DNA of 64,000 nucleotides from contig NZ_KB893644.1 in assembly GCF_000374125.1 (NCBI RefSeq), positions 186,001-250,000 of the forward strand, written 5' to 3'. A program made the position numbers and the translations under genes. How positions within the stretch are numbered: the stretch's first letter is position 1; each line of letters opens with the position of its first letter. Positions 10,583 through 54,286 of this stretch are shown one piece after another. The notes under the pieces were generated by a model, which ran no database searches, was not told the origin of the DNA, and saw nothing but the letters and a program-made list of their open reading frames with translations. Origin of the DNA: Niabella aurantiaca DSM 17617 (GTDB lineage: Bacteria > Bacteroidota > Bacteroidia > Chitinophagales > Chitinophagaceae).

Positions 10583-10600
10583 AGCAGTCGGTGGTCAGTT

Positions 10601-10621
10601 TTGAGAATTGAGTATTGAGAC
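10601..10621. repeat. three heptads downstream of recG
   Basis: TTGAGAA, TTGAGTA and TTGAGAC are three adjacent 7-base units 18 bases after the recG stop. They belong to the same class as the tracts before nuo genes. Confidence 0.6.
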
Positions 10622-10729: not shown

Positions 10730-10764
10730 GTCTCATTGCTCAGGTCTCGATTCTGATTTCTGAA
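10730..10764. repeat. five heptads upstream of the GlcD-like gene
   Basis: GTCTCAT, TGCTCAG, GTCTCGA, TTCTGAT and TTCTGAA form five adjacent 7-base units sharing an N(T/G)CT(C/G) core. The tract ends 74 bases before the ATG at 10839. Confidence 0.6.
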
Positions 10765-38507: not shown

Positions 38508-38514
38508 AAAATTT

Positions 38515-38564
38515 ATAATTTCTGATTTGAGCCTCGATCTCAAATCTCAAATCTCAAATCTCAA
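38515..38564. repeat. 7-base tandem repeat in front of nuoB
   Basis: ATCTCAA is repeated four times exactly at 38537-38564, and the last unit abuts the nuoB ATG (38565). Upstream, ATTTATA, ATTTCTG and ATTTGAG (about 38510-38530) are degenerate 7-base units. GATTTGAG (38524-38531) and CTCAAATC (38539-38546) form a perfect inverted repeat, so a hairpin is possible. Confidence 0.75.
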
Positions 38565-39146
38565 ATGAGACCAGTATCATATAATATTAAGAAAAAACCG
38601 CTGGAGGCAGATATCAGCATGGCAGAAATGCCGGAAGGGCACCAGGGGCAGGGTTTTTTTGCAACAACGCTGGACAATGTGATCGGGTTGGCGCGGAAGA
38701 ACTCCTTATGGCCGCTTCCCTTTGCTACCTCCTGCTGTGGAATTGAATTTATGGCTACCATGGCCGCCACTTATGATATTGCCCGTTTTGGCAGCGAGCG
38801 GGTGGGGTTTTCTCCCCGCCAGTGCGACCTGCTGATGGTTATGGGCACCATTGCAAAAAAAATGGGACCGGTGGTAAAACAAGTGTACCTGCAAATGGCT
38901 GAACCCCGCTGGGTGATTGCCGTGGGCGCCTGCGCTAGCAGCGGTGGAATCTTTGATACATACAGTGTGCTGCAGGGAATAGACCAGGTAGTGCCGGTGG
39001 ACGTTTATGTTCCCGGCTGCCCTCCCCGGCCGGAAGCCATTCTCGACGGATTGATGCGCATCCAGGACCTGGTGGGCAAAGAAAGCCTCAGAAGAAGGAA
39101 TAGTGAGCAGTATAAAGCATTATTGGAAAGTTACGGGATACAATAG
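38565..39146 (+). CDS. nuoB: NADH-quinone oxidoreductase subunit B
   Basis: NuoB carries the N2 cluster, the last Fe-S centre before quinone. The 193-residue protein has CCGIEFM (tandem Cys), GACASSGG and [16 protein letters not shown], the four cysteine ligands including the unusual adjacent pair. The C-terminal tail after [25 protein letters not shown] is a little longer than in E. coli. Its start codon directly follows a four-unit 7-base repeat. Confidence 0.97.
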
Positions 39147-39200
39147 TATAATATATGGAGATCTTTAGTATGAAGTATTTAGACACACATATGCATCCGT

Positions 39201-39235
39201 CTGAATACTGAATACTGAATACTGAATACTGAAAG
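39201..39235. repeat. 7-base tandem repeat in front of nuoC
   Basis: CTGAATA is repeated four times at 39201-39228, followed by CTGAAAG (39229-39235). The nuoC ATG (39245) follows 9 bases later. The unit is unrelated to the one before nuoB but has the same length. Confidence 0.75.
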
Positions 39236-39244
39236 TCTTTTACA

Positions 39245-39748
39245 ATGGCATTGAGCAACGAACAGATAAAAGAGAAGCTGGTTGAGAAATTTGGTGACCA
39301 GGTTATCGGTTTTGAAGAGCAGTACGGAATGCTGAGCTTCCAGTCCGCCAAAGAGCTCAATCTGAAGGTGCTGAATTTCCTGGTGGAGGAAGCAACGCTG
39401 CAATTCCGTTTCCTTACGGATCTCTGCGGAGTGCATTACCCCGACAACAAGGGACAGGAAATTGCAGTGGTGTATCACCTGCACAATATGAGGGAAAATG
39501 TGCGGATCCGGTATAAGGTATTTACGGATAGCGCACAGCCCGATGTATATACGGCAACCGGCCTTTTTGCCGGTGCCAACTGGATGGAACGGGAAACCTA
39601 CGACTTTTACGGGGTAAACTTCGTTGGTCACCCCAACCTGAAGCGGATATTGAATGTAGAAGAAATGGACTATTTCCCGATGCGGAAAGAATATCCGCTG
39701 GAAGACCAGAGCCGTATCGACAAAGATGACGAGATGTTCGGAAGATAA
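39245..39748 (+). CDS. nuoC: NADH-quinone oxidoreductase subunit C
   Basis: A peripheral-arm subunit of complex I (30-kDa subunit). The 167-residue protein has the family motif RETYDFYGVNFVGHPNLKRIL and an earlier FRFLTDLCGVHYPDNKG. It is a separate gene rather than fused to nuoD as in E. coli. It starts 9 bases after a 7-base tandem repeat; nuoD follows after 79 bases. Confidence 0.97.
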   Translation: MALSNEQIKEKLVEKFGDQVIGFEEQYGMLSFQSAKELNLKVLNFLVEEATLQFRFLTDLCGVHYPDNKGQEIAVVYHLHNMRENVRIRYKVFTDSAQPDVYTATGLFAGANWMERETYDFYGVNFVGHPNLKRILNVEEMDYFPMRKEYPLEDQSRIDKDDEMFGR

Positions 39749-39827
39749 ATAAGTTTAATGGCTGACGTTTAAAGTTTGAGGACCCTGTTGACCGATCACT
39801 TTAAACGATCGTATTGCATATTTGATT

Positions 39828-41048
39828 ATGAGCGACAATGTATTATTGCCGAGTGGCAGTATAGAGAAACAAACGACTACATTGAACCTGGGTCCCACGC
39901 ATCCGGCTACCCACGGAGTTTTCCAGAATATTATCGAGCTGGATGGTGAAAAAATTGTTGCCGCTGACTCTACGGTAGGCTATATTCACAGGGCCTTTGA
40001 AAAGATCGCCGAACGGCGCCCCTTATACCAGATAACGCCACTGACCGATCGCCTGAACTACTGCTCGGCTCCGATCAATAATATAGGCTGGCATCTTACC
40101 TGCGAAAAATTGCTGAAGGTACAGGTGCCCAAGCGGGTAGATTACCTGCGGGTAATCATTATGGAGCTGGCGCGGATCACGGACCACCTCATCTGTAATT
40201 CCATCATGGGGGTCGACAGCGGAGCCTATACCGGTTTTTTATATGTGATGCAATACCGCGAGCTGGTGTACGAGATCTACGAAGAGATCTGCGGCTCCCG
40301 GCTCACCACGAATATCGGGCGCATTGGCGGCTTTGAGCGCGATTTTACAAATGCGGCCTTTGAAAAGACTGAACGCTTTTTGAAGGAATACCCGGCGGTA
40401 TTAAAAGAATTTGAAGACCTGTTTACCCGCAACCGGATCTTTATGGAGCGAACAATAGGTGCAGGCCCTATCAGTGCCGAACGGGCATTGAATTACGGGT
40501 TTACCGGTCCCAACCTCCGGGCTGCGGGAGTGGACTATGACGTACGTGTGGTGGCTCCGTACAGCAGTTACGAGGAGTTCGATTTTGAGGTACCCATCGG
40601 TTCCACCGGGGATTCCTATGACCGCTTCCTGGTACGCAACGGTGAGATGTGGCAGAGTCTGCGGATTATTGAGCAGGCCATGCAAAAACTGAATGACCTG
40701 AAGGGAGAAGACGCCACCGTATATCACGCGGATGTACCGGAATATTACCTGCCGCCCAAAAAGGACGTATATACAAAAATGGAAGCGCTGATCTGGCATT
40801 TTAAGATCATTATGGGGGAGATCAATATGCCTCCGGGCGAAGTGTACCAGGCGGTGGAAGGTGCCAACGGCGAACTGGGCTTTTATTTCATCAGCGACGG
40901 GGGGCGGACTCCTTACCGCCTGCATTTCAGAAGGCCCTGTTTTATATACTACCAGGCGTATGCCGAAATGGTGAAGGGTGCGATGCTGAGTGATGCGATC
41001 GTGGTCATGTCGTCCATGAACCTGATCGCAGGGGAAATGGATGCGTAA
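39828..41048 (+). CDS. nuoD: NADH-quinone oxidoreductase subunit D
   Basis: The 49-kDa subunit that with NuoB forms the quinone site. The 406-residue protein starts at the ATG at 39828, two codons after an alternative TTG. It has GPTHPATHG near residue 23, IGYIHRAFEKIAE-type helix, RLTTNIGRIGGFERDF and the C-terminal RTPYRLHFRRPCF. Length is normal. It overlaps the first possible nuoE ATG by 8 bases. Confidence 0.97.
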   Translation: MSDNVLLPSGSIEKQTTTLNLGPTHPATHGVFQNIIELDGEKIVAADSTVGYIHRAFEKIAERRPLYQITPLTDRLNYCSAPINNIGWHLTCEKLLKVQVPKRVDYLRVIIMELARITDHLICNSIMGVDSGAYTGFLYVMQYRELVYEIYEEICGSRLTTNIGRIGGFERDFTNAAFEKTERFLKEYPAVLKEFEDLFTRNRIFMERTIGAGPISAERALNYGFTGPNLRAAGVDYDVRVVAPYSSYEEFDFEVPIGSTGDSYDRFLVRNGEMWQSLRIIEQAMQKLNDLKGEDATVYHADVPEYYLPPKKDVYTKMEALIWHFKIIMGEINMPPGEVYQAVEGANGELGFYFISDGGRTPYRLHFRRPCFIYYQAYAEMVKGAMLSDAIVVMSSMNLIAGEMDA

Positions 41049-41061
41049 ACGGAATTTAATA

Positions 41062-41574
41062 ATGGAGCAAAAGATAATGATACAGTTTTCTCAGGAACAA
41101 TTAGATAAAGTGAACCAGATCATCGCCCGCTATCCGGAAGGAAAGCAAAAAAGTGCTTTGCTGCCGGTACTGCACCTGGCCCAGGAGGTCTTTGGCTGGC
41201 TGAGCACAGAAACGATGGACTATGTGGCCACACTTTTAAAAATAGAGCCGATAGAAGTGTATGAGGTTGCCACATTTTACACGATGTACAACCTGAGACC
41301 GGTCGGGAAATACGTATTTGAAGTATGCCAGACCGGTCCCTGCATGATCCAGGGAAGCGATGATATCATTGCATATATTGGTGAACAATTGAATATAAAA
41401 CCCGGGGAAACCACGGAAGATGGTTTGTTTACGCTGAAAACCGCCGAGTGTCTCGGGGCCTGCGGGTATGCACCGATGATGCAGATGGGTAAATTTTACA
41501 AAGAGCATCTTACAAAAGAGAAAGTAGATGCCATTATTGCAGCATGCAGGAATGACGCATCCGTTAACAATTAA
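41062..41574 (+). CDS. nuoE: NADH-quinone oxidoreductase subunit E
   Basis: The 24-kDa subunit holds the N1a [2Fe-2S] cluster of the NADH-dehydrogenase module. Ligand motifs are CQTGPCM and CLGACGYAP (four cysteines). Three in-frame starts exist: 41041 (overlapping nuoD), 41062 and 41077; the conserved IQFSQEQLDKVNQIIARYP begins right after the last. I use 41062 (170 residues). The next gene is not nuoF but a VOC-family gene 12 bases downstream. Confidence 0.93.
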   Translation: MEQKIMIQFSQEQLDKVNQIIARYPEGKQKSALLPVLHLAQEVFGWLSTETMDYVATLLKIEPIEVYEVATFYTMYNLRPVGKYVFEVCQTGPCMIQGSDDIIAYIGEQLNIKPGETTEDGLFTLKTAECLGACGYAPMMQMGKFYKEHLTKEKVDAIIAACRNDASVNN

Positions 41575-41586
41575 AAAGAAATAGCT

Positions 41587-42009
41587 ATGCAGGCAATTAC
41601 TCCTTACCTGAATTTTAACGGTGATGCTGCGGAGGCGCTGGATTTTTATGCAAAGGCCCTGGGCGGACAAATTGTGCACCAGCAAACCTTCGGTGACACA
41701 CAGGCCGAATTTCCAAGCCCGGATTCACATAAGGATAAGATCATGCACGCCCTGTTCAACGCAGGCGAGCTGAATTTCATGGTGAGCGATTGCGCACCGG
41801 GAGCCGAGCCTGTAACCGCCGGATCCAATATAAGCCTGGCACTGAATTTTACCGATGAAGCATCCATTACCGGGGCATTTGAGGCCATAGCGGCAGGAGG
41901 AACCATAACTATGCCGCTCCAGGATACGTTTTGGGGGGCAAAATTCGGAATGGTAACGGATCGGTTCGGTATCAGCTGGATGTTCAACTACGATAAGCCC
42001 AAAAGTTAG
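41587..42009 (+). CDS. VOC-family (PhnB/glyoxalase-like) protein inside the nuo operon
   Basis: The 140-residue protein has the PhnB-like variant of the vicinal-oxygen-chelate fold: ITPYLNFNGDAAEALDFYAKALGG at the start, HALFNAGELNFMVSD, and TDRFGISWMFNYDKP at the end. Such proteins bind or modify small molecules; PhnB-type members have no proven reaction. It lies 12 bases after nuoE and 37 bases before nuoF, so it is very likely cotranscribed with complex I. No link to NADH oxidation is known, which makes the place notable. Confidence 0.88.
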   Translation: MQAITPYLNFNGDAAEALDFYAKALGGQIVHQQTFGDTQAEFPSPDSHKDKIMHALFNAGELNFMVSDCAPGAEPVTAGSNISLALNFTDEASITGAFEAIAAGGTITMPLQDTFWGAKFGMVTDRFGISWMFNYDKPKS

Positions 42010-42046
42010 TTGTTCCGCAGCTGATTTTTGGAAAAGGATAAAAACA

Positions 42047-43411
42047 ATGAGCAGTAAAAAATTACTTTTAGAGAACGCACATATTGAAGGCATCCGCTAT
42101 TACGATGTTTACCGTAAGAACGGAGGCTACCGTAGCGTGGAGAAGGCTTTGAAAATGTCGCCGGATGAGGTAGTGGAGGAAGTAAAGAAAAGCGGCCTCA
42201 GAGGCCGGGGCGGAGCGGGGTTTCCTGCAGGTATGAAATGGAGCTTTATTGCCAAACCCGAAGGCGTTCCCCGTCACCTGGTATGCAATGCGGATGAAAG
42301 TGAACCGGGTACGTTTAAGGATCGCTACCTCATGGAGTTCATTCCGCATCTGCTCATCGAGGGGCTGATCGTTTCCAGCTATGCACTGGGGTCAAACGTT
42401 ACCTATATCTACATCCGGGGCGAATACGCCTGGATACCGGATATTCTGGAGCAGGCGATTGAGGAAGCAAAAGCAAACGGTTTTCTGGGAAAGAATATAT
42501 TAAACTCCGGGTTCGATTGTGAGATCTATGTACAGCGGGGTGCGGGAGCTTATATCTGCGGAGAAGAAACCGCTTTGATCGAATCGCTGGAGGGCAAACG
42601 GGGCAACCCGCGCATCAAGCCGCCCTTCCCTGCGGTAAAAGGTGCCTGGGACCGCCCGACCGTGGTAAACAACGTAGAAACCCTGGCCGCTGTGGCGCCC
42701 ATCATCAACATCGGTGGTGAGGAGTATGCAAAAATAGGCGTGGGACGGTCTACCGGAACAAAGCTGATCTCGGCCTGCGGCAATATCAACAAGCCCGGGG
42801 TTTATGAAATCGACATGACCATCTCCGTTGAGGAGTTTATTTACAGTGATGAGTGGTGTGGCGGTATCAAAAACGGCAAACGGTTGAAAGCCTGTATTCC
42901 GGGCGGATCTTCTGTTCCCATTTTACCGGCCAACCTGCTGCTGAAAACGGCGAAGGGTGAACCGCGGATGATGAACTATGAGAGCCTCGCTGATGGCGGT
43001 TTTGCAACCGGTACCATGATGGGTAGCGGTGGATTTATTGTGCTGGATGAAGATCAGTGCGTGGTGAAGCATACCTATACGCTGGCGCGCTTTTACCGTC
43101 ATGAAAGCTGTGGACAGTGTTCACCCTGCCGGGAAGGTACCGGATGGATGGAAAAGCTGCTGCTGCGCCTGGACCAGGGGCAGGGCAAGATGAGCGATAT
43201 AGACCTGTTGTGGGATATTCAGAGCAAGATCGAAGGAAATACGATCTGTCCTTTGGGTGATGCCGCCGCGTGGCCGGTTGCCGCGGCGATCCGGCATTTC
43301 CGCGATGAATTTGAATGGCATATCACCAATGCGGCAGAGGCGCAAACCCGTAATTTCGGATTGGCGCATTATGCCGATCCGTTGCCGGTATCGGAGCCTG
43401 TGGCGGTGTAA
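42047..43411 (+). CDS. nuoF: NADH-quinone oxidoreductase subunit F
   Basis: The NADH- and FMN-binding subunit. The 454-residue protein has GLRGRGGAGFPAGMKW (NADH binding), the FMN motif around GAGAYICGEETAL, and the N3 [4Fe-4S] ligands ESCGQCSPCREG with a fourth Cys in NTICPLGD. Length and order are normal. It is followed not by nuoG but by the GxxExxY cassette, whose left inverted repeat begins 6 bases after the stop. Confidence 0.97.
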   Translation: MSSKKLLLENAHIEGIRYYDVYRKNGGYRSVEKALKMSPDEVVEEVKKSGLRGRGGAGFPAGMKWSFIAKPEGVPRHLVCNADESEPGTFKDRYLMEFIPHLLIEGLIVSSYALGSNVTYIYIRGEYAWIPDILEQAIEEAKANGFLGKNILNSGFDCEIYVQRGAGAYICGEETALIESLEGKRGNPRIKPPFPAVKGAWDRPTVVNNVETLAAVAPIINIGGEEYAKIGVGRSTGTKLISACGNINKPGVYEIDMTISVEEFIYSDEWCGGIKNGKRLKACIPGGSSVPILPANLLLKTAKGEPRMMNYESLADGGFATGTMMGSGGFIVLDEDQCVVKHTYTLARFYRHESCGQCSPCREGTGWMEKLLLRLDQGQGKMSDIDLLWDIQSKIEGNTICPLGDAAAWPVAAAIRHFRDEFEWHITNAAEAQTRNFGLAHYADPLPVSEPVAV

Positions 43412-43416
43412 GGTCG

Positions 43417-43447
43417 TTTCTCGCAAAGCCGCAAAGTCAACGCAAAG
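43417..43447. repeat. left inverted terminus of the GxxExxY cassette
   Basis: TTTCTCGCAAAG (43417-43428) is the exact reverse complement of 43866-43877. It runs on into CCGCAAAG and TCAACGCAAAG, so GCAAAG occurs three times here. The GxxExxY ATG follows at 43458. Confidence 0.75.
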
Positions 43448-43457
43448 AATAAAAGGT

Positions 43458-43835
43458 ATGACGGAAAATGAATTAGCGAAGATTGCGGTTGATTGCTGTT
43501 TCAAAATTCACAGTCAATATGGACCGGGATTATTTGAAAGCGTTTACGAGGAGATCTTTTGCTATGAGTGGCAAAAAACGGGGATAGGGTTTAAAAGGCA
43601 GCAGGGAGTGCGATTGATACACAAGGGAATAGATATGGGAATTGGTTTTATCCCTGATGTAGTAATTGGGAATAAAGTAATTCTGGAATTTAAATCGATC
43701 GAGGCATTGGCAGATGTACATTATAAGCAGGTGCTAACATATCTAAAGTTAACAGATTTGAAGCTGGGGCTGCTAATCAACTTTAATGTACCGCTGATTA
43801 AAAATGGTATGCATCGTATTGTAAATAATTTATAA
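43458..43835 (+). CDS. GxxExxY protein (PD-(D/E)XK nuclease-like)
   Basis: The 125-residue protein has the defining motif GLFESVY (Gly24, Glu27, Tyr30) and the PD-(D/E)XK pattern PDVVIGNKVILEFKS, with Asp67, Glu77 and Lys79. The family (Pfam PDDEXK_3) has no proven activity but has the residues of a nuclease. I start at the ATG at 43458; the open frame runs back into nuoF without conserved residues. It lies between nuoF and nuoG, flanked by perfect 12-base inverted repeats, and so looks mobile. Base composition is more A+T rich than the nuo genes around it. Confidence 0.85.
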   Translation: MTENELAKIAVDCCFKIHSQYGPGLFESVYEEIFCYEWQKTGIGFKRQQGVRLIHKGIDMGIGFIPDVVIGNKVILEFKSIEALADVHYKQVLTYLKLTDLKLGLLINFNVPLIKNGMHRIVNNL

Positions 43836-43840
43836 AATAT

Positions 43841-43877
43841 TGGCGTCTTGGCGAGGTCCTGGCGTCTTTGCGAGAAA
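43841..43877. repeat. right inverted terminus of the GxxExxY cassette
   Basis: CTTTGCGAGAAA (43866-43877) mirrors 43417-43428. Before it, TGGCGTC / TTGGCGAG / TGGCGTC (43841-43866) are degenerate copies of the reverse-complement repeat. The nuoG ATG follows 5 bases after the terminus. Confidence 0.75.
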
Positions 43878-43882
43878 TAAAT

Positions 43883-45028
43883 ATGGCAGACGAAATAAAA
43901 CAAGAACCACCTGCAAATTTTAAGGTAACCATCGACAATGTTACCCTGGAAGTGCCGCCCGGTACTACCATTCTGCAGGCTGCAAGGATGGTAGGCGGTG
44001 ATGTGGCGCCCCCGGCTATGTGTTTTTATACACCGCTGAAAGGCAGTGGTGGTAAATGCCGTACCTGCCTGGTAGAGGTTAGCAAAGGATCGGAAAAAGA
44101 CCCGCGGCCCATGCCTAAGCTGGTAGCCAGCTGCCGCACTACGGTAATGGATGGCATGGAAGTAAAAAACATCACCAGCGAACGGGTGATCAATGCACGA
44201 AACAGCGTGGTAGAATTCCTGTTGATTAACCACCCGCTGGATTGCCCGATCTGTGACCAGGCGGGAGAGTGCCATCTGCAGGATCTGAGCTATGAACATG
44301 GTAAGGAAGGTACGCGCTACGAATTCAAACGCCGTACCTTCAAAAAACACAACCTGGGTAAATACATCCAGCTGCATATGACGCGTTGTATCCTTTGCTA
44401 CCGTTGTGTATTTACCGCTGATCAGCTGACCAATAAACGGCAGCATGGAATACTGGACAGGGGCGATCATGCAGAGATTGCTACATATATCGAAAAATCG
44501 CTGGATAATGAGTTTATCGGTAATGTGATCGATGTATGCCCGGTGGGAGCCCTGACCGATAGAACCTTCCGTTTTAAGAACCGGGTATGGTTCACCAAAC
44601 CGGTGGATGCGCACCGCGATTGTCCGAATTGCTGTGGAAAAGTAACACTGTGGGAGCGGGGCAACGAAGTATTGCGGGTAACAGCACGCAAGGATCCCTG
44701 GGGCGAAATACTGCCGGCAGAAGATGGCAAAACGGGGTGGATCTGTAATGAATGCCGTTTTGAAAAGAAAGATATCAAAGACTGGGTGATTGAGGGGCCC
44801 ATGAAGGTAGCCCGGCACTCCGTTATCGGGGCCAACCACTATGAAGTGCTGGACCTTCCCAGGGAAACGATCCCCGAAGTGATGGGCGGGCGGGCACCCA
44901 AGCTGCTGATGAATATTCACAGCATCAGCGATGTGAACGATCCGGCCATCGACCTGAGCAAGATCCCCGGGCCGGCAACAGGAGAAGTGTTTGACCGGAA
45001 AAAATTAACAGAGGAAAAGAAAGATTAA
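43883..45028 (+). CDS. nuoG: NADH-quinone oxidoreductase subunit G, short form
   Basis: The Fe-S subunit of the NADH-dehydrogenase arm. The 381-residue protein has the N-terminal [2Fe-2S] ligands (CFYTPLKGSGGKCRTC, with a further Cys in ASCRTT), CPICDQAGECHLQD, and a [4Fe-4S] motif TRCILCYRCVF; the chain then has CPNCCGKV and CNECRF. E. coli NuoG has about 900 residues: the whole molybdopterin-oxidoreductase-like domain is missing, as is common in Bacteroidota. The start is the ATG at 43883, 5 bases from the right terminus of the GxxExxY cassette. Confidence 0.93.
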   Translation: MADEIKQEPPANFKVTIDNVTLEVPPGTTILQAARMVGGDVAPPAMCFYTPLKGSGGKCRTCLVEVSKGSEKDPRPMPKLVASCRTTVMDGMEVKNITSERVINARNSVVEFLLINHPLDCPICDQAGECHLQDLSYEHGKEGTRYEFKRRTFKKHNLGKYIQLHMTRCILCYRCVFTADQLTNKRQHGILDRGDHAEIATYIEKSLDNEFIGNVIDVCPVGALTDRTFRFKNRVWFTKPVDAHRDCPNCCGKVTLWERGNEVLRVTARKDPWGEILPAEDGKTGWICNECRFEKKDIKDWVIEGPMKVARHSVIGANHYEVLDLPRETIPEVMGGRAPKLLMNIHSISDVNDPAIDLSKIPGPATGEVFDRKKLTEEKKD

Positions 45029-45049
45029 CAAGCTATATTATTTTATAAC

Positions 45050-46105
45050 ATGTACTTACTGGCTATTGATTGGATTTTTATTATTGAAAAACTGGTGCTG
45101 ATCGCCGCCATTGTTACCTTGTCAATGGTGGTGGCCATGTATGCTACATATGGCGAAAGAAAGGTAGCGGCATTCATCCAGGACCGGATCGGGCCAAACA
45201 GGGCAGGTCCTTTTGGCTTGCTGCAGCCATTGGCCGATGGAGGGAAGCTCTTTTTTAAAGAAGAGATCATTCCGCTGGCATCTTCAAAATTCCTGTTCAT
45301 ACTGGGCCCGCTGCTGGCAATGGTAACCGCATTGCTGACCAGCGCCGTGATTCCCTGGGGAGCTTCTATGAATATCGGCAACCGCACGGTGCCCCTGCAG
45401 GTTGCGGATGTGAACATCGGGATCCTTTATGTTTTTGGCGTGGTAAGCCTCGGCGTGTACGGCATCATGCTGGGCGGTTGGGCCTCCAACAATAAATTTT
45501 CACTGCTGGCAGCTATCCGTGGTGCGTCGCAGATGGTATCGTATGAGCTGGCCATGGGGTTGTCGCTGATTGCGGTACTGATGCTCACCGGTTCATTGCA
45601 GATGAGCGTAATCGTAGGGGAGCAGTACAACGCCGTATGGAACATCGCTTACCAGCCTATCGGCTTCATCATCTTTTTTATCTGTGCGCTGGCGGAAACG
45701 AACCGCACACCGTTTGATTTACCCGAGGCGGAAAATGAACTGAACTTCGGATACCACCAGGAATACTCCAGTATGAAGCTGGGTTTTTACTTGTTTGCAG
45801 AATACATTAATATGTTCATAAGCGGTGTTATCATGGCTACCCTGTATTTTGGAGGTTACGATATTCCGTTTGTTAACGAAGCCAGCCTGGCGCAGCATAT
45901 TGGAGAGAACTGGGTAGCCTTGCTTACATTCCTTACGCTGATGGTGAAGGCCCTGTTCTTTGTATTTGTATTTATGTGGATCCGCTGGACCATTCCCCGG
46001 TTCCGTTTTGACCAGCTGATGCATCTTGGATGGAAACGGCTGATCCCGCTGGCATTGCTGAATATGGTGATCACCGCGGTGGTGATCCTTTGGCTGAAGA
46101 AGTAG
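45050..46105 (+). CDS. nuoH: NADH-quinone oxidoreductase subunit H
   Basis: The membrane subunit that joins the quinone cavity to the membrane arm. The 351-residue protein has about eight helices and the motifs YGERKVAAFIQDRIGPNR and ETNRTPFDLPEAENEL, both diagnostic. Loop WIRWTIPRFRFDQLMHLGWKRLIP near the end is also conserved. It follows nuoG by 21 bases. A 136-base spacer without gene separates it from nuoI. Confidence 0.98.
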   Translation: MYLLAIDWIFIIEKLVLIAAIVTLSMVVAMYATYGERKVAAFIQDRIGPNRAGPFGLLQPLADGGKLFFKEEIIPLASSKFLFILGPLLAMVTALLTSAVIPWGASMNIGNRTVPLQVADVNIGILYVFGVVSLGVYGIMLGGWASNNKFSLLAAIRGASQMVSYELAMGLSLIAVLMLTGSLQMSVIVGEQYNAVWNIAYQPIGFIIFFICALAETNRTPFDLPEAENELNFGYHQEYSSMKLGFYLFAEYINMFISGVIMATLYFGGYDIPFVNEASLAQHIGENWVALLTFLTLMVKALFFVFVFMWIRWTIPRFRFDQLMHLGWKRLIPLALLNMVITAVVILWLKK

Positions 46106-46241
46106 AATGGGAATGTGGAAATGTGAGAATTGAAAAAGATGAAAACAGTACCGGTGTACAAGTGAGTGACACAAGAATGTGGAGCCTTGCACAGGCGTTG
46201 ATAAACAAAAAATTAAAAAGTAAAGCGCTGTATAAAGAAAT
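46106..46241. other. 136-base spacer between nuoH and nuoI
   Basis: This is the longest gap in the core of the operon. It holds the 15-mer GAATGTGGAAATGTG (46111-46125), repeated exactly at 52577-52591 after nuoN. An open frame overlapping the end of nuoH runs to 46245, but it is a different frame and shows no family features. No promoter or hairpin is clear. Confidence 0.5.
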
Positions 46242-46799
46242 ATGAGTGAACCATTAACAAACAGGAGTAAACCCGTTGATCGGAGGCCGATGAACTGGGT
46301 AGAGCGTTTATACCTGGTAAATATTTTTAAAGGGATGGCCATTACATTGAGACATTTCTTTAAAAAGAAGGCCACCATTAAATATCCTGAAGAAACAAGG
46401 CCGTTTAGCAAGGTCTTCAGAGGTCTGCACATCCTTAACCGGGATGAGGAAGGGCGTGAAAGATGTACGGCCTGTGGTCTTTGTGCCGTAGCCTGTCCGG
46501 CAGAAGCCATTACCATGGAGGCTGCGGAACGCCAGGAAGGCGAAGAAAAACTGTATCGTGAGGAAAAATATGCCGCAAAATATGAGATCAATATGCTGCG
46601 CTGTATCTTCTGCGGATATTGTGAGGAGGCTTGCCCCAAAGATGCCATTTACCTGTCGCAGACATTTACACCTGCCAACTACCAGCGTAAGGGATTTATT
46701 TATAAAAAAGAAGACCTGCTGATCCCCGATCCGGTTACAGATCCGGAAGGCTATCAAAAAGCGTTGGGAACCATCAACAGGGAAAAAGAAGGTGTTTAA
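46242..46799 (+). CDS. nuoI: NADH-quinone oxidoreductase subunit I
   Basis: A ferredoxin-type subunit with two [4Fe-4S] clusters (N6a, N6b). The 185-residue protein has CTACGLCAVACPAEAI and CIFCGYCEEACPKDAI, the two 4Fe-4S binding motifs, separated by about 45 residues. The N-terminal helix (LVNIFKGMAITLRHFF) is the conserved membrane-associated start. It lies 19 bases before nuoJ. Confidence 0.98.
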   Translation: MSEPLTNRSKPVDRRPMNWVERLYLVNIFKGMAITLRHFFKKKATIKYPEETRPFSKVFRGLHILNRDEEGRERCTACGLCAVACPAEAITMEAAERQEGEEKLYREEKYAAKYEINMLRCIFCGYCEEACPKDAIYLSQTFTPANYQRKGFIYKKEDLLIPDPVTDPEGYQKALGTINREKEGV

Positions 46800-46818
46800 G
46801 GGTTAATAAGAAAATGAA

Positions 46819-47319
46819 ATGAATATTACGCAACTATTATTCTGGTTACTAACGGTAATTGCTATAGGCAGCGCGCTGATGATTGTGACCAGTAAAAATC
46901 CTGTGTACAGTGTGCTGGGATTGATTGTTACTTTCTTTGCCATCTCCGGCCATTATATTTTAATGAATGCGCAATTCCTGGCCATTGTAAATATCATCGT
47001 TTATGCCGGGGCCATTATGGTATTGTTCCTTTTTGTGATCATGCTCATGAACCTGAGCAGGGCAACGGAAACCCTGAAGAACAAATGGCTGCAGATTGTG
47101 GGGGCCATTGCCGGAAGCTGCTTATTCCTCGTACTGATCGCAGCTTTAAAAAATACGGAAATAAAAAAGAACCTGGTGGAAATGGGAACCGGTGATATCG
47201 GGCTGGTGAAAAGCCTCGGAAGGGAGTTGTTCACCACCTTTGTTGTTCCGTTTGAAATCAGCAGCGTGCTGTTCCTGAGCGCCATGATCGGGGCCGTGGT
47301 AATCGGTAAGAAAGAATAA
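46819..47319 (+). CDS. nuoJ: NADH-quinone oxidoreductase subunit J
   Basis: The 166-residue membrane subunit has five helices. The early segment [50 protein letters not shown] contains the family motif with [10 protein letters not shown]. The C-terminal helix [18 protein letters not shown] matches. It is followed by three 7-base repeat units and then nuoK. Confidence 0.97.
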
Positions 47320-47320
47320 G

Positions 47321-47348
47321 ATCTCAAATCTCAAATCTCAAATTCAAA
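47321..47348. repeat. 7-base tandem repeat in front of nuoK
   Basis: ATCTCAA is repeated three times exactly (47321-47341), then a decayed unit ATTCAAA. The nuoK ATG (47351) follows 2 bases later. It is the same unit as before nuoB, 8.8 kb away. Confidence 0.75.
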
Positions 47349-47350
47349 AA

Positions 47351-47677
47351 ATGCCAATAAATTATTACATAACCCTTGCTCTTTGTTTGTTTGCCATAGG
47401 TGTGGTAGGGGTATTGACACGCAGGAACGCCATTATTGTTTTCATGTGCATCGAGCTGATGCTGAACTCGGTTAACCTGTTGCTGGTAGCTTTCTCAAAA
47501 ATGCATCACCTGGCAAAAGGGGCGGCAGCCACAGCAGGTACCGACGGACAGTTGTTTGTATTTTTCATCATGGTAGTAGCGGCAGCGGAAGTAAGCGTTG
47601 GTCTGGCGATCATTGTGATGATGTACCGGAATGTGCATTCGATAAATATTAATTTCTTAAACAGGCTGAAACATTAA
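47351..47677 (+). CDS. nuoK: NADH-quinone oxidoreductase subunit K
   Basis: The 108-residue subunit of the proton-pumping arm has three helices. It has the conserved Glu in [19 protein letters not shown], at the centre of the second helix, and a second in [23 protein letters not shown]. This size and the two glutamates identify NuoK. It lies 22 bases before nuoL and follows a 7-base tandem repeat. Confidence 0.97.
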
Positions 47678-47699
47678 TTGCGCCGGCATTCTTTTTATT

Positions 47700-49607
47700 A
47701 TGAATAATGTGTTAGATATCGTTTATTGGATCCCGCTGTTGCCGTTGCTGGGCTGTATCATAAACGGATTGGGAAGAAAAAATTTATCAAAAGGAGCCAT
47801 CGGTTTTATCGGAAGCGGTGTCATTCTTGCCTCTTTTGTATTAAGCCTCTGGGTGTTTTTCCAGGTCCGTGGAGGAAATGTACATACCGCGGAATATTTC
47901 CCGTTCATCAATGTGGGCAATCTGAAGATCCCCTTTGCCTTCCAGATCGATCAGTTGTCGGCCATCTGGCTGCTGATCATTACCGGTATCGGCTTTTTGA
48001 TCCATGTTTATTCTGTTTCTTATATGCATGAAGAAAAACCAGTGCATTTCGGGAGGTATTTTGCCTATCTGAACCTGTTTGTGTTCTCCATGCTGTTGCT
48101 GGTGATGGGGGCCAATTTTGTGATCATGTTCATTGGGTGGGAAGGCGTTGGCCTATGCTCGTACCTGCTGATCGGTTTCTGGTTTAAGAAAAAAGAATAC
48201 AGCAAGGCCGCCAACAAGGCGTTCATCATGAACCGTGTGGGCGACCTGGCCTTTTTGATCGCCTTGTTCATGCTGATCCATAAGCTGGGCACAACCACTT
48301 TTAGTGAGATCTTTACCAGTGCCTCCCTGGCAAAATTATCGGGTAAGGAAATGACCACCATTACATTACTGCTGTTTGTAGGCGCCACCGGTAAAAGTGC
48401 CCAGATCCCGTTGTACACCTGGCTGCCCGATGCGATGGCGGGTCCTACGCCAGTGTCGGCGCTCATCCACGCCGCTACCATGGTTACCGCGGGGGTCTAT
48501 ATGATCGCCCGGGCCAACCTGATGTTTGCCATGGCCCCGGCCACATTAAATGTGATCGCTATCATTGGCATTGCTACGGCCCTGCTGGCCGCTACCATTG
48601 CCCTCAAACAGAACGACATTAAAAAAGTGCTGGCGTATTCGACAGTAAGCCAGCTGGGATATATGTTCCTGGCATTGGGAAGTGGTGCTTATGTGGCGGC
48701 TGTTTTTCATGTAATGACCCATGCCTTCTTCAAGGCATTGTTGTTCCTGGGCAGCGGCAGCGTTATTCATGCAATGGGGGGCGAGCAGGATATGCGCAAA
48801 ATGGGCGGTTTGTCCCGGTACATGAAGATAACCAATATTACCTTCCTGCTGGGCTGCCTGGCCATTGCCGGCATTCCGGGTTTTTCCGGCTTTTTCTCCA
48901 AGGACGAAATTCTCGCAGGCGCATTTGCGAAGTCGCCGGTATTGTATGCGCTGGGCTTGTTTGGGGCACTATTGACCGCGTTTTATATGTTCCGGCTATA
49001 TGTTACTACGTTTAAAGGAACATTCCGTGGCACGGACGAGCAGAAACATCATTTACATGAAAGCCCTGCAGCCATCACCATACCGCTGGTCATCCTGGCT
49101 GTTCTTTCCGTAATCGGCGGATTTGTCGGAGTGCCGGAGTTTATCGCGCATGGGGCACATGCATTGTCCGGCTTCCTGCAGCCCGTTTTTAAAGAAGCAT
49201 ACGCCGTTCTGCCGAAGCACGAAGTGGAGCATAGCACAGAGTGGGGGCTTGCAGGGCTGTCCTCCGTATTGGTGATCCTTACCGTAATCATTGCCTGGGC
49301 CCGGTTCTCTAAAAAACCCGACCTGCAGGCCGCAACCGGTTTCGGAAAAATATTGGAAAATAAATGGTATATAGACGAGCTGTACCAGGGTGTTATTGTA
49401 AAGCCGCTCAATATGCTGGGCTCATTTTTGAGCAATGTAGTAGATAAAAAAGTGGTAGACGGACTGGTGAACGGAGTGGGCCGGCTGGTGCGTTATGGCG
49501 GCCGTCAGCTGCGCTGGTTGCAAAGCGGGCAAACCGGCTCTTATATATTAATGATGGTGCTGGGAATGGTGCTGATCTTTATTGTGCAGTTCTTTTTGAG
49601 AAAATGA
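47700..49607 (+). CDS. nuoL: NADH-quinone oxidoreductase subunit L
   Basis: The 635-residue antiporter-like subunit at the tip of the membrane arm has about 16 helices. Signatures include GWEGVGLCSYLLIGFWF (with the catalytic Glu), TGKSAQIPLYTWLPDAMAGPTPVSALIHAATMVTAG and HAFFKALLFLGSGSVIHAMGGEQDMRKMGGL (Lys for proton transfer). The long C-terminal helix and a final membrane anchor are present. The stop is followed by a heptad and palindrome tract before nuoM. Confidence 0.98.
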   Translation: MNNVLDIVYWIPLLPLLGCIINGLGRKNLSKGAIGFIGSGVILASFVLSLWVFFQVRGGNVHTAEYFPFINVGNLKIPFAFQIDQLSAIWLLIITGIGFLIHVYSVSYMHEEKPVHFGRYFAYLNLFVFSMLLLVMGANFVIMFIGWEGVGLCSYLLIGFWFKKKEYSKAANKAFIMNRVGDLAFLIALFMLIHKLGTTTFSEIFTSASLAKLSGKEMTTITLLLFVGATGKSAQIPLYTWLPDAMAGPTPVSALIHAATMVTAGVYMIARANLMFAMAPATLNVIAIIGIATALLAATIALKQNDIKKVLAYSTVSQLGYMFLALGSGAYVAAVFHVMTHAFFKALLFLGSGSVIHAMGGEQDMRKMGGLSRYMKITNITFLLGCLAIAGIPGFSGFFSKDEILAGAFAKSPVLYALGLFGALLTAFYMFRLYVTTFKGTFRGTDEQKHHLHESPAAITIPLVILAVLSVIGGFVGVPEFIAHGAHALSGFLQPVFKEAYAVLPKHEVEHSTEWGLAGLSSVLVILTVIIAWARFSKKPDLQAATGFGKILENKWYIDELYQGVIVKPLNMLGSFLSNVVDKKVVDGLVNGVGRLVRYGGRQLRWLQSGQTGSYILMMVLGMVLIFIVQFFLRK

Positions 49608-49616
49608 CCCGGAAAC

Positions 49617-49678
49617 CGAAACTTGGAACTTTACCCCGATCGCTATCGGGATTGGAATTTGGAATTTGAAATTTGAAA
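49617..49678. repeat. composite heptad tract with central palindrome before nuoM
   Basis: Heptads GAAACTT and GGAACTT lead to the hairpin CCCGATCGCTATCGGG (49635-49650; 6-base arms, 4-base loop), followed by ATTGGAA, TTTGGAA, TTTGAAA and TTTGAAA up to the nuoM ATG (49680). A related hairpin occurs at 58650-58669. Confidence 0.7.
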
Positions 49679-49679
49679 T

Positions 49680-51164
49680 ATGATCGCATTGTTGTTGATA
49701 CTGGTGCCTTTAGTGAGCGGGTTGGCTGCTTTTTTAATGAAAAAAGAGGAACAGGTGAGAACCTGGTCGTTATTGGCAGCCATCATCACGTTTATCATTT
49801 CCATTCTTGGTGTGGCGGTTTATACGGCACCCGGATGCTGGACGTTCAGGGCCGGCTGGATGGGATCGCTGAACAGTAGCTTTTCGTTGAAAGGGGATGG
49901 CATGGGGATCATGCTATGCCTGCTCACAGCGCTGTCTTACCCCGTGATCTTTCTTTCGACCTGGACCACTGCCTACAAAAAGGTGCATAACTTCTTTGGG
50001 TTGATGCTCTTAACACAGGCCGGCCTCATGGGCGTATTCCTGGCAATGGATGCCCTGCTTTTTTACTTCTTCTGGGAACTGGCGCTCATACCGATTTATT
50101 TTATCTGTTCGCAATGGGGCGGCGAAAAGCGCATTGCGGTAACTTTTAAATTCTTTATCTATACTTTCATCGGCTCATTGTTAATGCTGGTGGGCATACT
50201 GTATGTTTATTCCCGTACTCCGGGCCATTCCTTTGATATTACCGCCTTTTACCAGGCTGGTCTTTCCCTGAAGGAACAATCCTGGCTGTTCTGGTTATTC
50301 TTTGTGGCTTTTGCGGTAAAAATGCCGGTATTCCCGTTTCACACCTGGCAGCCGGATACGTACCAGCAATCGCCAACTGCGGCAACAATGGTGCTCAGTG
50401 CGCTGATGGTAAAAATGGGCTTGCTGGGGGTACTGCGCTGGCTGTTGCCGGTGTTCCCTTTTGCTTCCTACCTGAACGGGGATACCATATCCCTGCTGGC
50501 GGTAACGGGCATTGTTTATGCATCCCTGATCGCAATGCGGCAGGATGATATGAAGCGGCTGGTTGCCTATTCTTCCATCGCCCATATCGGGCTGATGTGT
50601 GCGGCTGTTTTTGCCGAAGACAAAAGTGCTCTGCAGGGAACCATGATACAGATGTTCTCCCATGGGATCAATATTCTGGGGATGTGGATCGTGGTGGAGA
50701 TCATCGAGCGGAAATTCGGCACCGTTAAGATTTCCGCTTTGGGCGGCATTGCCCAAAAAGCACCGGTGCTTACCTTCTTCTTTGTGATCATTGCTTTTGC
50801 CAATATAGCCCTGCCTTTAACCAATGCCTTCATCGGCGAGTTCCTGATGTTCAGAGGCATCCTGGCTTCCCGGGTTTCAGAGCATGGTGTCCTGATCATG
50901 GCCACAGCGGGTCTTGGGATCATCCTGGGCGCGGTATATACCCTGCGTCTGGGGCGCAAAGTGTTTTTTGGGGAAACAAACGCACTCACGGAAAAGGGGA
51001 GCGATATCGTTTTTCATGAGCGGGCGATCCTTGCAATCATTGTTGGCGCCATTCTGATCCTGGGTATCTATCCCCAGCCATTCTTAAACGCATTAGATCA
51101 TATCAGTCAATCCATTTTAAAAAATTCAGACGTGCTTCCGATGTTGATGAAGCAGAAGCATTAA
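49680..51164 (+). CDS. nuoM: NADH-quinone oxidoreductase subunit M
   Basis: The 494-residue antiporter-like subunit has about 14 helices. Motifs: FFFWELALIPIYFIC (catalytic Glu), VKMPVFPFHTWQPDTYQQSPTAATMVLSALMVKMGLLGVLRW and MKRLVAYSSIAHIGLMCAAVF. The order L-M-N is as in other complex I operons. Start follows a 7-base repeat with no Shine-Dalgarno; nuoN follows after 10 bases. Confidence 0.98.
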   Translation: MIALLLILVPLVSGLAAFLMKKEEQVRTWSLLAAIITFIISILGVAVYTAPGCWTFRAGWMGSLNSSFSLKGDGMGIMLCLLTALSYPVIFLSTWTTAYKKVHNFFGLMLLTQAGLMGVFLAMDALLFYFFWELALIPIYFICSQWGGEKRIAVTFKFFIYTFIGSLLMLVGILYVYSRTPGHSFDITAFYQAGLSLKEQSWLFWLFFVAFAVKMPVFPFHTWQPDTYQQSPTAATMVLSALMVKMGLLGVLRWLLPVFPFASYLNGDTISLLAVTGIVYASLIAMRQDDMKRLVAYSSIAHIGLMCAAVFAEDKSALQGTMIQMFSHGINILGMWIVVEIIERKFGTVKISALGGIAQKAPVLTFFFVIIAFANIALPLTNAFIGEFLMFRGILASRVSEHGVLIMATAGLGIILGAVYTLRLGRKVFFGETNALTEKGSDIVFHERAILAIIVGAILILGIYPQPFLNALDHISQSILKNSDVLPMLMKQKH

Positions 51165-51174
51165 GAGAAATAAT

Positions 51175-52548
51175 ATGAACGCAGTACTATTATCAGGTTT
51201 GTTAGGTGTGGTGATGATGTTCGCCAGCTTTTTGTTCAGGACAAAGGCCCCGGTGCGGATACTGGCTATTTTGGGCATGGCCGTATTGCTGGTTGCGAAT
51301 GTCCTCGACACAAAAGGGATCCATTTTTTTCATGTGAATACAACCGGCTTCCTTTCATTTACCGGCTATGCGCTGTTTTTTAATACGATCGTCATTGCCT
51401 GCACGCTGATCTTTTTCCTTATTTCCTCAAAAGACATGCAAAAGGTGGGGAATCACTATGCCGAATATTTTGCCCTGATCTTCTTCATCCTGACCGGCAT
51501 CTTCCTGGTAACCGCATTTACCAACCTGCTGATACTTTTTATCGGAATTGAGATCATCTCCATTCCACTATACATCCTGACCGGCTCTGCAAAAAAGGAT
51601 TTAAAAAGCAATGAGGCGGCGCTGAAATATTTTTTGATGGGGGCTTTTTCAACCGGCGTAATGCTGATGGGTATTGCGTTGATCTACGGGGCCACCGGCA
51701 CTTTTGATATTACAAAGATGAATATTGCCGGGCTGTTGAAATCAAACCTGCTGACGGCGGGGATGCTGATGCTGTTGTTCTCCATGTGCTTTAAGGTATC
51801 CATCGCTCCCTTTCACTTCTGGACGCCGGATGTATATGACGGTGCTCCGAATGTATTTACCTCTTTTATGGCCACGATTGTAAAAGTGGGCATTTTTGTC
51901 GGGTTCCTCCACCTGTTCTACACTGCTTTTGATGCGATCGCGCTCCAATGGAAAATATGGATGGCCGTGCTGGCGGCGCTTACGCTGCTGGTAGGGAACA
52001 TCACTGCGGTCTTTCAGCAAAGCGTAAAACGGATGCTGGCCTATTCCAGTATTTCCCAGGCCGGTTTTATGCTGTTTGCCCTGGTGGCCATGAATGAAAC
52101 GGCGCATGAGGGCCTGCTGCTTTACGCAATAGCCTACTGCCTGGCAACGATCGGGGTATTTGGGATCATCAGCAAAATGACGGATTACTCCTTTGACGGG
52201 TTCAATGGTCTGGCAGGGCATCAGCCTTTAGTGGCGCTATGCGTTGCCATTTTCATGTTGTCTTTGGCCGGCATACCGCTTTCTGCAGGATTCCTGGCCA
52301 AGTTCTATATGCTAAAGGCAGTTATACAGGCCGGTGGCTATATGTGGCTGGTGATCTTTGGCGTGCTGATGGCTGCGGTAAGCGCTTATTATTACTTCCG
52401 GGTGATACAGGCGATGTACTTTAAAGAAGGGCCCAATCACTTTTCCGGGATCAGCGCATTTGAAAAGTGTGTGCTGGTGGGCATCTGTGTGCTCATCGTG
52501 TTTACCGGACTTTTTCCCAACATAATATTCGGCTGGATGTATTTTTAA
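51175..52548 (+). CDS. nuoN: NADH-quinone oxidoreductase subunit N
   Basis: The 457-residue antiporter-like subunit has about 14 helices. Motifs: LFIGIEIISIPLYILTG (membrane Glu), FKVSIAPFHFWTPDVYDGAPNVFTSFMATIVKVG, and KRMLAYSSISQAGFMLFALVA. It ends the nuo operon; the 232-base gap after it is filled by degenerate 7-base repeats. No clear terminator was found. Confidence 0.97.
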   Translation: MNAVLLSGLLGVVMMFASFLFRTKAPVRILAILGMAVLLVANVLDTKGIHFFHVNTTGFLSFTGYALFFNTIVIACTLIFFLISSKDMQKVGNHYAEYFALIFFILTGIFLVTAFTNLLILFIGIEIISIPLYILTGSAKKDLKSNEAALKYFLMGAFSTGVMLMGIALIYGATGTFDITKMNIAGLLKSNLLTAGMLMLLFSMCFKVSIAPFHFWTPDVYDGAPNVFTSFMATIVKVGIFVGFLHLFYTAFDAIALQWKIWMAVLAALTLLVGNITAVFQQSVKRMLAYSSISQAGFMLFALVAMNETAHEGLLLYAIAYCLATIGVFGIISKMTDYSFDGFNGLAGHQPLVALCVAIFMLSLAGIPLSAGFLAKFYMLKAVIQAGGYMWLVIFGVLMAAVSAYYYFRVIQAMYFKEGPNHFSGISAFEKCVLVGICVLIVFTGLFPNIIFGWMYF

Positions 52549-52780
52549 TCATCCGGTTCAGTATTTGAAAATTTGTGAATGTGGAAATGTGGGAATGAGC
52601 ATTCGGCCTCAAACCGGGACCGGATTTGGGATTTTCGATCCTCAGCGTTAAATGCCCCCTGGTCTTTCCGTCACCCGGAACAAGCTTAGAACTATCAGAT
52701 TTGAGGATTTGAAAATGTGCAAATGAGCATCCGTATCATTAAACTTCAAACCTTAAACCGATAACCTGTAACTTAGCAAG
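52549..52780. repeat. repeat-rich gap between nuoN and the MacB-like permease
   Basis: Two imperfect copies of one pattern occur: 52562-52605 (TTTGAAAATTTGTGAATGTGG and on to ATGAGCATTCGG) and about 52699-52736 (TTTGAGGATTTGAAAATGTG to ATGAGCATCCGT). The second runs into five heptads at 52741-52775: AAACTTC, AAACCTT, AAACCGA, TAACCTG, TAACTTA. The GTG start follows 5 bases later. No gene is visible. Confidence 0.65.
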
Positions 52781-54058: not shown

Positions 54059-54205
54059 AAAACGCAATGCTGGAGCTGTTTTATTGAATACAATAAAATC
54101 AAAAACGATTTTAAATAAAATTATCGTAACATTTTTTTGTTTTTTTTGATTAATTATAAAAAAAGATTAACTTCAATCGGTTAAAAAAAAATAATGACGA
54201 AAAAT

Positions 54206-54235
54206 TTTGTTGTTTGATTTTTTTTGTTAGAATTG
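54206..54235 (+). promoter_or_regulatory. Bacteroidota-type promoter of the exbB-tonB operon
   Basis: TTTG (54206-54209), an 18-base spacer and TAGAATTG (54228-54235; one mismatch to TAnnTTTG) stand 51 bases before the exbB ATG in a very A+T rich 228-base gap. Confidence 0.5.
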
Positions 54236-54286
54236 TAGACTCAAATAAACTTGTTCAATATTTAAAAAACTAAAAAAACTAAGATC

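Follow-up and report, generated by a model that had tools for sequence, protein, structure and literature searches.

Tandem repeats built of 7-nt units have been described in the intergenic DNA of several bacterial groups. We compared with them the arrays of 7-nt units (heptads) and 8-nt units (octads) found in the nuo (complex I) operon of Niabella aurantiaca DSM 17617 and in other gaps of the surrounding window, i.e. the whole stretch of 64,000 nt that was analyzed (contig NZ_KB893644.1, positions 186,001 to 250,000; genome size, 5.93 Mb). The short tandemly repeated repetitive (STRR) heptamers of cyanobacteria are tandem 7-nt units, as here, but occur in another phylum and consist of few fixed units. 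For long simple sequence repeats, most genomes were reported to have 7 nt as their commonest unit length, with polymerase slippage put forward as the cause (Mrazek et al. 2007, via PMC4679880 and PMC4692102); those repeats are exact and long, while the Niabella arrays are mostly degenerate. The closest relatives are the heptamers GGGAATC and GGGGA(C/T)T of Xanthomonas and Nostoc (Rehm et al. 2015, PMC4692102). As presented in the passages of that paper that describe them, they have partly conserved and partly variable positions, are dispersed and mostly intergenic, often form inverted pairs (two Xanthomonas genomes have 70 and 75 of them), point outward with the G- or purine-rich strand leading away from open reading frames, are rare in divergent gaps (8 and 7%) regardless of gene function, and mostly keep their gaps in related strains while their length and sequence vary. 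The arrays studied here share these properties. The direct repeats of TAACTGA found in Beggiatoaceae, Cyanobacteria and five Bacteroidetes (MacGregor 2015, PMC4679880) are likewise intergenic, often end right before a start codon and are intermixed with other heptamers; two close Cyanothece strains differ mostly by 7-nt insertions or deletions in them (same source). Calothrix heptanucleotides are cited in PMC4692102.

The arrays studied here also depart from these systems. The Xanthomonas and Nostoc units are G-rich, form G-quadruplexes and belong to other phyla, whereas the Niabella units are often AT-rich and devoid of G tracts and show a second period of 8; the Xanthomonas heptamers also lie nearer to the upstream open reading frame (on average 28 vs 160 nt), whereas in Niabella stops and starts are approached alike (PMC4692102, same passages). 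Inverted pairs and outward purines (strong for octads, weaker for heptads) were found, but the G tracts of GGGNATC are missing from the commonest unit classes, and this makes the architecture (period 7, inverted pairs, purine outward) separable from the G-quadruplex idea. In the BOGUAY genome, TAACTGA mostly faces a start codon and one inverted case is mentioned (PMC4679880), whereas inverted pairs are common in Niabella. No TAACTGA dimer was present on either strand of the window, and the preferential placement before starts that characterizes TAACTGA was not observed, stops and starts being used alike. AT-rich units free of G tracts, the period of 8, and the outward polarity of such units have no counterpart in the passages on Xanthomonas, Nostoc and Beggiatoaceae. 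A preliminary description of this DNA had stated that no system of this type is described, which the two papers cited contradict; no further title or abstract opening in the open-licence PMC literature was found to describe such arrays in Bacteroidota. Our favored interpretation, held with about even confidence, is that the tracts belong to this known type of intergenic heptad and octad array and are produced and remodelled by a process acting on DNA.

The period-7 signal is real and genome-wide. It was measured in 864 kb of the own genome (the window and 800 kb drawn from two contigs; 497 intergenic gaps), an array being a stretch with at least 14 of 18 matches at a given lag, mismatches tolerated. 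Lag-7 arrays occurred in 27 gaps (1.8 in dinucleotide shuffles of the gaps), lag-8 arrays in 10 (1.0 shuffled) and lag-6 arrays in 3 (1.0 shuffled), so that lag 7 exceeded lags 6 and 8, the opposite of what would have refuted the preliminary description. The named loci contained lag-7 arrays in 86 of 756 gaps, compared with 2.6 after shuffling, these gap counts being not independent because the loci are related by descent. Lags 4-6 and 9-13 reached just 1-8 gaps each in the two sets. Over the 864 kb there were 7 runs of at least 14 matches at lag 7, compared with 2 such runs at lag 8, and none was seen at either lag in two fifth-order Markov copies of the sequence. Short repeats can arise randomly in AT-rich gaps, but these counts make chance or base composition a negligible explanation. 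Own coding DNA was almost free of arrays (4 lag-7 clusters in 758 kb, against 27 of the 497 gaps, which total 102 kb). In the cluster scan, 1 of 42 lag-7 and 1 of 17 lag-8 clusters were runs of N, and gaps of this kind are excluded from the gap counts. The over-representation of the heptad period relative to neighboring lengths and its concentration in non-coding DNA fit intergenic heptameric simple sequence repeats.

The window itself is richer in arrays than the wider sample, with 3 of the 7 long exact arrays; of its 46 gaps, 6 passed the threshold at lag 7 and a single one did so at lag 8, and it contained 5 runs of at least 10 matches at lag 7 and none at lags 6 and 8. Among 12 sampled Chitinophagaceae genomes, lag 7 was ahead of lag 6 in every genome and ahead of lag 8 in 11 of them, but 10 of the 12 (G017-G026 of our genome set) had been picked after arrays were seen in their nuo loci, and their array densities are therefore not a fair sample. 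The dominance of lag 7 held in the own genome but was not seen when ten further Niabella genomes were examined at their nuo loci, where lag 8 (20 of 136 gaps) was about as frequent as lag 7 (18 of 136). The original claim of units of exactly 7 nt was therefore too strict, 8 being a second period. Outside this group the distribution was patchy: when 18 other Bacteroidota genomes were sampled by 20 stretches of 20 kb, lag-7 arrays appeared in 5 gaps (1.2 shuffled), 2 of which belong to a genome of the same family, and with so few gaps the idea of a phylum-wide spread was dropped. In E. coli, lag-7 arrays were found in 2 of 64 gaps (0.2 shuffled).

The arrays are not specific to leaders, since they favor stops and starts equally. 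With gene borders taken from a hexamer-based caller rather than from the annotation, so that start positions may be off, heptads of codirectional gaps lay within 10 nt of a stop in 53 and of a start in 46 of 180 cases (24.2 expected for each), and octads in 31 and 30 of 103 (12.1 expected for each). Stops were also approached in convergent gaps (heptads, 16 of 80 vs 7.1 expected; octads, 4 of 16 vs 1.3), which makes the architecture separable from the translation idea, while starts in divergent gaps showed no enrichment (heptads, 1 of 38 vs 2.2 expected; octads, 1 of 22 vs 1.2). The enrichment near starts asserted in the preliminary description is thus correct for codirectional gaps, but is matched at stops and is absent from divergent gaps. 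Within an operon, the array adjoining an internal gene also abuts a start codon, and this accounts for the placement originally noticed. The density of lag-7 arrays per kb in codirectional, convergent and divergent gaps was 0.37, 0.21 and 0.15 in the own genome, 1.47, 0.71 and 0.27 in the named loci, and 1.21, 0.25 and 0.47 in genome G001. A role of the arrays as stop codons in all frames, which the gene strand would offer in 58 of 180 cases and the other strand in 43, was considered and not retained; the shuffled expectation of 15.3 is unfair in this case because shuffling destroys the period.

The arrays are polar. By tendency, the left half of a gap is purine-rich and the right half pyrimidine-rich, and this applied to all three gap classes, with small counts outside the codirectional one. 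Counted by gap, octads pointed outward in all 14 pairs and in 28 of 31 singles, hence in 42 of 45 gaps, and an octad dimer did so in 84 of 90 matches; in the own sample, 9 of its 10 matches fell in gaps. Polarity was weaker for heptads, whose pairs were RY in 27 cases, YR in 5, YY in 8, RR in 1 and 0R in 1 (R, purine; Y, pyrimidine), and whose singles were outward in 89 of 151 cases (p = 0.03). As to sequence, the pooled set comprised 415 heptad and 206 octad classes, some of them widely shared (AAAAGTC and AAAATGTG in 11 genomes or loci each, AAAATTTG in 12). The commonest classes, such as AAATCTC, AAAAGTC and AAAATGTG, are without GGG, a rarer exception being the octad AATGTGGG. Units are degenerate: in arrays of at least 4 heptads, 449 of 931 columns were invariant, compared with 391 when the mismatches were randomly dealt. 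Similarity decreased from 0.775 between neighboring units (n = 521) to 0.587 between units four apart (n = 122); the rule used for detection, however, itself favors neighbors that are alike.

Further evidence for a process acting on DNA came from the complementarity of the arms. Of the 246 array gaps of the pooled set, 129 contained an inverted repeat reaching the cut-off (score of at least 12), compared with 199 of the 1386 gaps free of arrays (odds ratio, 6.6). Mirror repeats, used as a control, occurred in 14% of heptad and 23% of octad gaps, compared with 53 and 52% for inverted repeats. Heptad arms matched the partner of their own gap better than those of other gaps of the same genome (12.0 vs 8.5, n = 110, p = 2e-4), and so did octad arms (14.9 vs 12.0, n = 51, p = 0.01), a test that is free of the bias due to selecting on the own score. 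Across 66 loci, the density of arrays correlated with that of inverted repeats (rho = 0.69). One stem of 37 bp was built of octads (locus L035, 10586-10727), and one gap (locus L030, 9881-9994) had the layout stop, [AAAGTCA]n, loop, [TTTTGAC]n, start. Separately, a 536-nt gap (locus L012, 12477-13012) showed higher-order repeats, with six AAGT-type heptad blocks recurring every 62-82 nt.

In the window, arrays were located by Tandem Repeats Finder and a search for match runs; all coordinates below refer to the forward (+) strand. The heptads announced before nuoB, nuoC, nuoK and nuoM were confirmed, being perfect before the first three genes and near-perfect before nuoM. ATCTCAA (4.3 units, 38537-38566) is flush against the nuoB start and forms the right arm of an inverted repeat (38511-38559, arms 38511-38531 and 38539-38559, 16 of 21 positions paired) whose score of 11 is below the cut-off. 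CTGAATA (4.7 units, 39201-39233) ends 11 nt short of the nuoC start, or 7 nt when the tolerant cluster is taken, and is the right arm of an inverted repeat scoring 13.5 (39154-39228, arms 39154-39184 and 39199-39228, 23 of 30 paired). A second ATCTCAA array (3.3 units, 47321-47343), for which no inverted partner was found, lies 7 nt upstream of the nuoK start, which we place at 47351 since the frame opening there matches the NuoK family from its first residue onward, while the hexamer caller put it at 47387. Degenerate TTTGGAA/TTTGAAA heptads (49652-49679) end at the nuoM start and have no long inverted partner. Just upstream of them, the nuoL-nuoM gap contains a short CCCGAT...ATCGGG hairpin (49635-49650), also seen in two other Niabella genomes (G002 and G007) and resembling a dispersed palindromic element. 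An ATCTCAA dimer had 30 matches in the genome (overlaps counted separately) and the reversed pattern 0; units do differ between loci, as had been claimed, but this one is common to nuoB and nuoK.

Beyond nuoN, octads of the AATGTGGA type (52570-52599) start 21 nt past the stop, and a second octad array, GATTTGAG/GATTTGAA/AATGTGCA (52698-52725), forms the right part of a short, weak inverted repeat (52624-52644 and 52702-52724, 18 of 21 paired, score 10). These octads precede the MacB-like permease gene, before which strict heptads had been announced; the AAACCTT-like heptads found there (52748-52772) are weak, degenerate and under the threshold, the best lag-7 stretch of the gap (13 of 18) being surpassed by the best lag-8 stretch (14 of 18). 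In the nuoH-nuoI gap (46106-46241), the nuoH stop is also followed by octads, which are weak here (lag 8, 12 of 18) but clearer, and of the same type, in G012, G010 and G013. Degenerate heptads directly past the recG stop (10595-10621) constitute the left arm of an inverted repeat with its right arm at 10730-10756 (20 of 27 paired, score 13); the tract proper (10595-10619) begins 12 nt past that stop, and 219 nt separate its end from the next start. Others (339-369), 22 nt past the upstream stop and 241 nt before a gene for a cyclic nucleotide monophosphate-binding (Crp/Fnr-type) protein, overlap an inverted repeat scoring 12 (323-348 and 354-379, 19 of 26 paired). Tracts ending 0-10 bases before a start, as stated in the preliminary description, were thus found at nuoB, nuoC (tolerant tract), nuoK and nuoM, but not on the recG and Crp/Fnr sides. 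As to the tract said to lie near guaB, the gene identified was that of a GMP synthase (guaA type, 2905-4440), and no guaB was identified. Overall, 6 gaps of the window have a lag-7 array, and in 4 of them an inverted repeat overlaps it (nuoA-nuoB, nuoB-nuoC, past recG, and upstream of the Crp/Fnr-type gene).

The arrays turn over between Niabella species, as shown by a comparison of the nuo gaps of 14 genomes, one per species; the window NuoB shares 98% identity with that of Niabella pedocola. The nuoJ-nuoK gap carried heptads in 8 of the 14 genomes, with at least 3 unit types (ATCTCAA, AACCTGA/AACTT and AACTGAA), those of G010 and G013 being close to TAACTGA. This gap, with its genus-wide turnover, is a tractable system for observing the process. 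Arrays were found in the nuoA-nuoB gap of 9 genomes (6 heptad, 3 octad), in the nuoB-nuoC gap of 8, and in the nuoC-nuoD gap of none of the 14. In the nuoB-nuoC gap, the 4.7 CTGAATA units of the own genome are replaced in G005 by fewer, degenerate units at the same place.

A plausible sequence of events would begin with strand slippage, by which 7 or 8 nt are duplicated in tandem and one arm grows longer; template switching at quasi-palindromes during replication would then copy one arm from the other and keep the two complementary. Template switching is known to make and repair inverted repeats, in microbes and elsewhere (PMC8794818, in the part dealing with it), and its relation to inverted repeats is also treated in part of PMC7202029. 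Arrays would build up where a change in length is tolerated, which is mostly the case in codirectional gaps, less so where genes converge or diverge, and scarcely at all within coding sequence. We favor such an origin because of the placement in all gap classes and at stops as well as starts, the better match of arms to their own partner, and the correlation between arrays and inverted repeats. The generating process suggested in the preliminary description is supported by the favored period, the variable units, the decay of their similarity, the turnover between species and the gap-specific match of the arms. Several observations weigh on the other side. The column-specific constraint in the units is above chance and could equally be given by selection. 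Octad arms cross-paired well between gaps of one genome (own, 15.9; cross, 14.6; n = 41), as expected for a dispersed family, and ordinary gaps showed a slight own-over-cross excess too (7.58 vs 6.91, p = 0.01). Neither the restriction to 7 or 8 nor the outward polarity follows from slippage alone, and the data, with their one genome per species, contain no change of unit number within a species. The published guess for the 7-nt step is the footprint of a polymerase (Mrazek 2007, as cited in passages of PMC4679880 and PMC4692102). It appears distinctly unlikely to us that a single process acting on DNA, perhaps a specific polymerase or nuclease activity advancing by 7-8 nt, is the author of polar, mirror-paired short repeats at the borders of genes in bacteria as unrelated as the Chitinophagaceae and, with their G-rich units, Xanthomonas and Nostoc; if it were true, step length and outward polarity would be the fingerprint of the enzyme, and G-quadruplexes and leader functions would be side effects of the unit.

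The stems could alternatively be selected as RNA, as repeat-built terminators, attenuators or hairpins that stabilize or process mRNA. RNA-selected stems should have more G-U than A-C mismatches on the transcribed strand. Array stems showed no significant excess (123 vs 106, p = 0.29, at a score of at least 10; 109 vs 82, p = 0.06, at 12 or more), which by itself would speak against selection as RNA and is compatible with, though no proof of, a DNA-level origin. Ordinary codirectional stems gave 252 vs 187 (p = 0.002) and 129 vs 106 (p = 0.15) at the same cut-offs, and no cut-off set the two kinds apart (Fisher p 0.37, 0.70 and 1.0), a similarity that would favor the RNA explanation, as would a smaller early set of array stems (71 vs 41 at 12 or more; 84 vs 59 at 10 or more). 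Taken together, the mismatch counts do not separate the RNA level from the DNA level. Folding was also divided. Codirectional heptad gaps out-folded array-free gaps in three of four sets (own genome, -1.9, n = 18, vs -1.1, n = 209), the octad gaps of the named loci folded strongly (mean z -3.5, n = 27, vs -1.4, n = 348), some stems reached 37 bp as in L035, and 16 of 28 array stems in convergent gaps scored at least 12; on the other hand, the arrays of G001 were unfolded (mean z 0.04, n = 10), own octads were not clearly folded (-0.5, n = 6), and the nuoK and nuoM arrays of the window are partnerless. We regard RNA stems as a rather unlikely explanation. The proposal that leader repeats tune, through their copy number, the translation of genes devoid of a Shine-Dalgarno sequence would account for the enrichment at codirectional starts and for the arrays flush with the ATG at nuoB and nuoM here and at nuoK in G001, G009, G007 and G010, and it has been made for TAACTGA in Beggiatoaceae (PMC4679880, in the passages on these repeats). 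It does not explain why stops are equally enriched, including those between convergent genes, where there is no start, nor why divergent starts are not, and we abandoned this part of the preliminary description as very improbable. The absence of a Shine-Dalgarno sequence is ordinary in this phylum, according to parts of PMC6847099 and PMC9976891.

Finally, the arrays could represent a dispersed inverted-repeat family of the repetitive extragenic palindromic (REP) or miniature inverted-repeat transposable element (MITE) kind, with the octads AAAATGTG/AAAATTTG as termini. The recurrence of these two classes (11 genomes or loci for the first, 12 for the second), the outward orientation and intergenic location of the octad dimer, and the pairing of octad arms across gaps would fit such a family. 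We consider it unlikely, since there are hundreds of unit classes rather than one sequence, and since no interior common to the gaps was apparent by eye (no alignment was made). The Y1_Tnp family is linked with REP elements; it gave 3 matches in the own genome but none in the array-rich genomes G019, G020 and G025, which also led us to reject a RAYT-type transposase as the partner of the arrays. Loss of the hairpin nuclease SbcD was likewise rejected as a cause: the most array-rich loci were without SbcD, but the array fraction (0.072 in 7 loci with SbcD, 0.170 in 59 without) did not differ significantly (p = 0.42), loci with fewer than 3 gaps being dropped L145 (G014, SbcD-positive) lying outside the gap set, and L081 lying outside the SbcD search. 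SbcD reached the cut-off in 6 of 28 and 5 of 49 genomes (one of the 5 with an internal stop), compared with 43 of 49 for recN; it was below the cut-off in the own genome (G000) and in most of the Chitinophagaceae searched (22 of 28 and 44 of 49), among which its loss is apparently widespread.

Two other features of the window are worth mentioning. The nuoF-nuoG gap encodes, within the nuo operon, a 125-residue protein of the PDDEXK_3 nuclease superfamily (43458-43835; PF13366, E = 1e-34), flanked by short inverted CTCGCAAAG/CTTTGCGAG sequences; the gap is 467-704 nt long in 11 of the 14 Niabella genomes, 880 nt in one and about 100 nt in two. Upstream of a TolQ/ExbB-like gene, a long AT-rich inverted repeat (54089-54237, 40 of 53 paired, score 17) was found, with no array.

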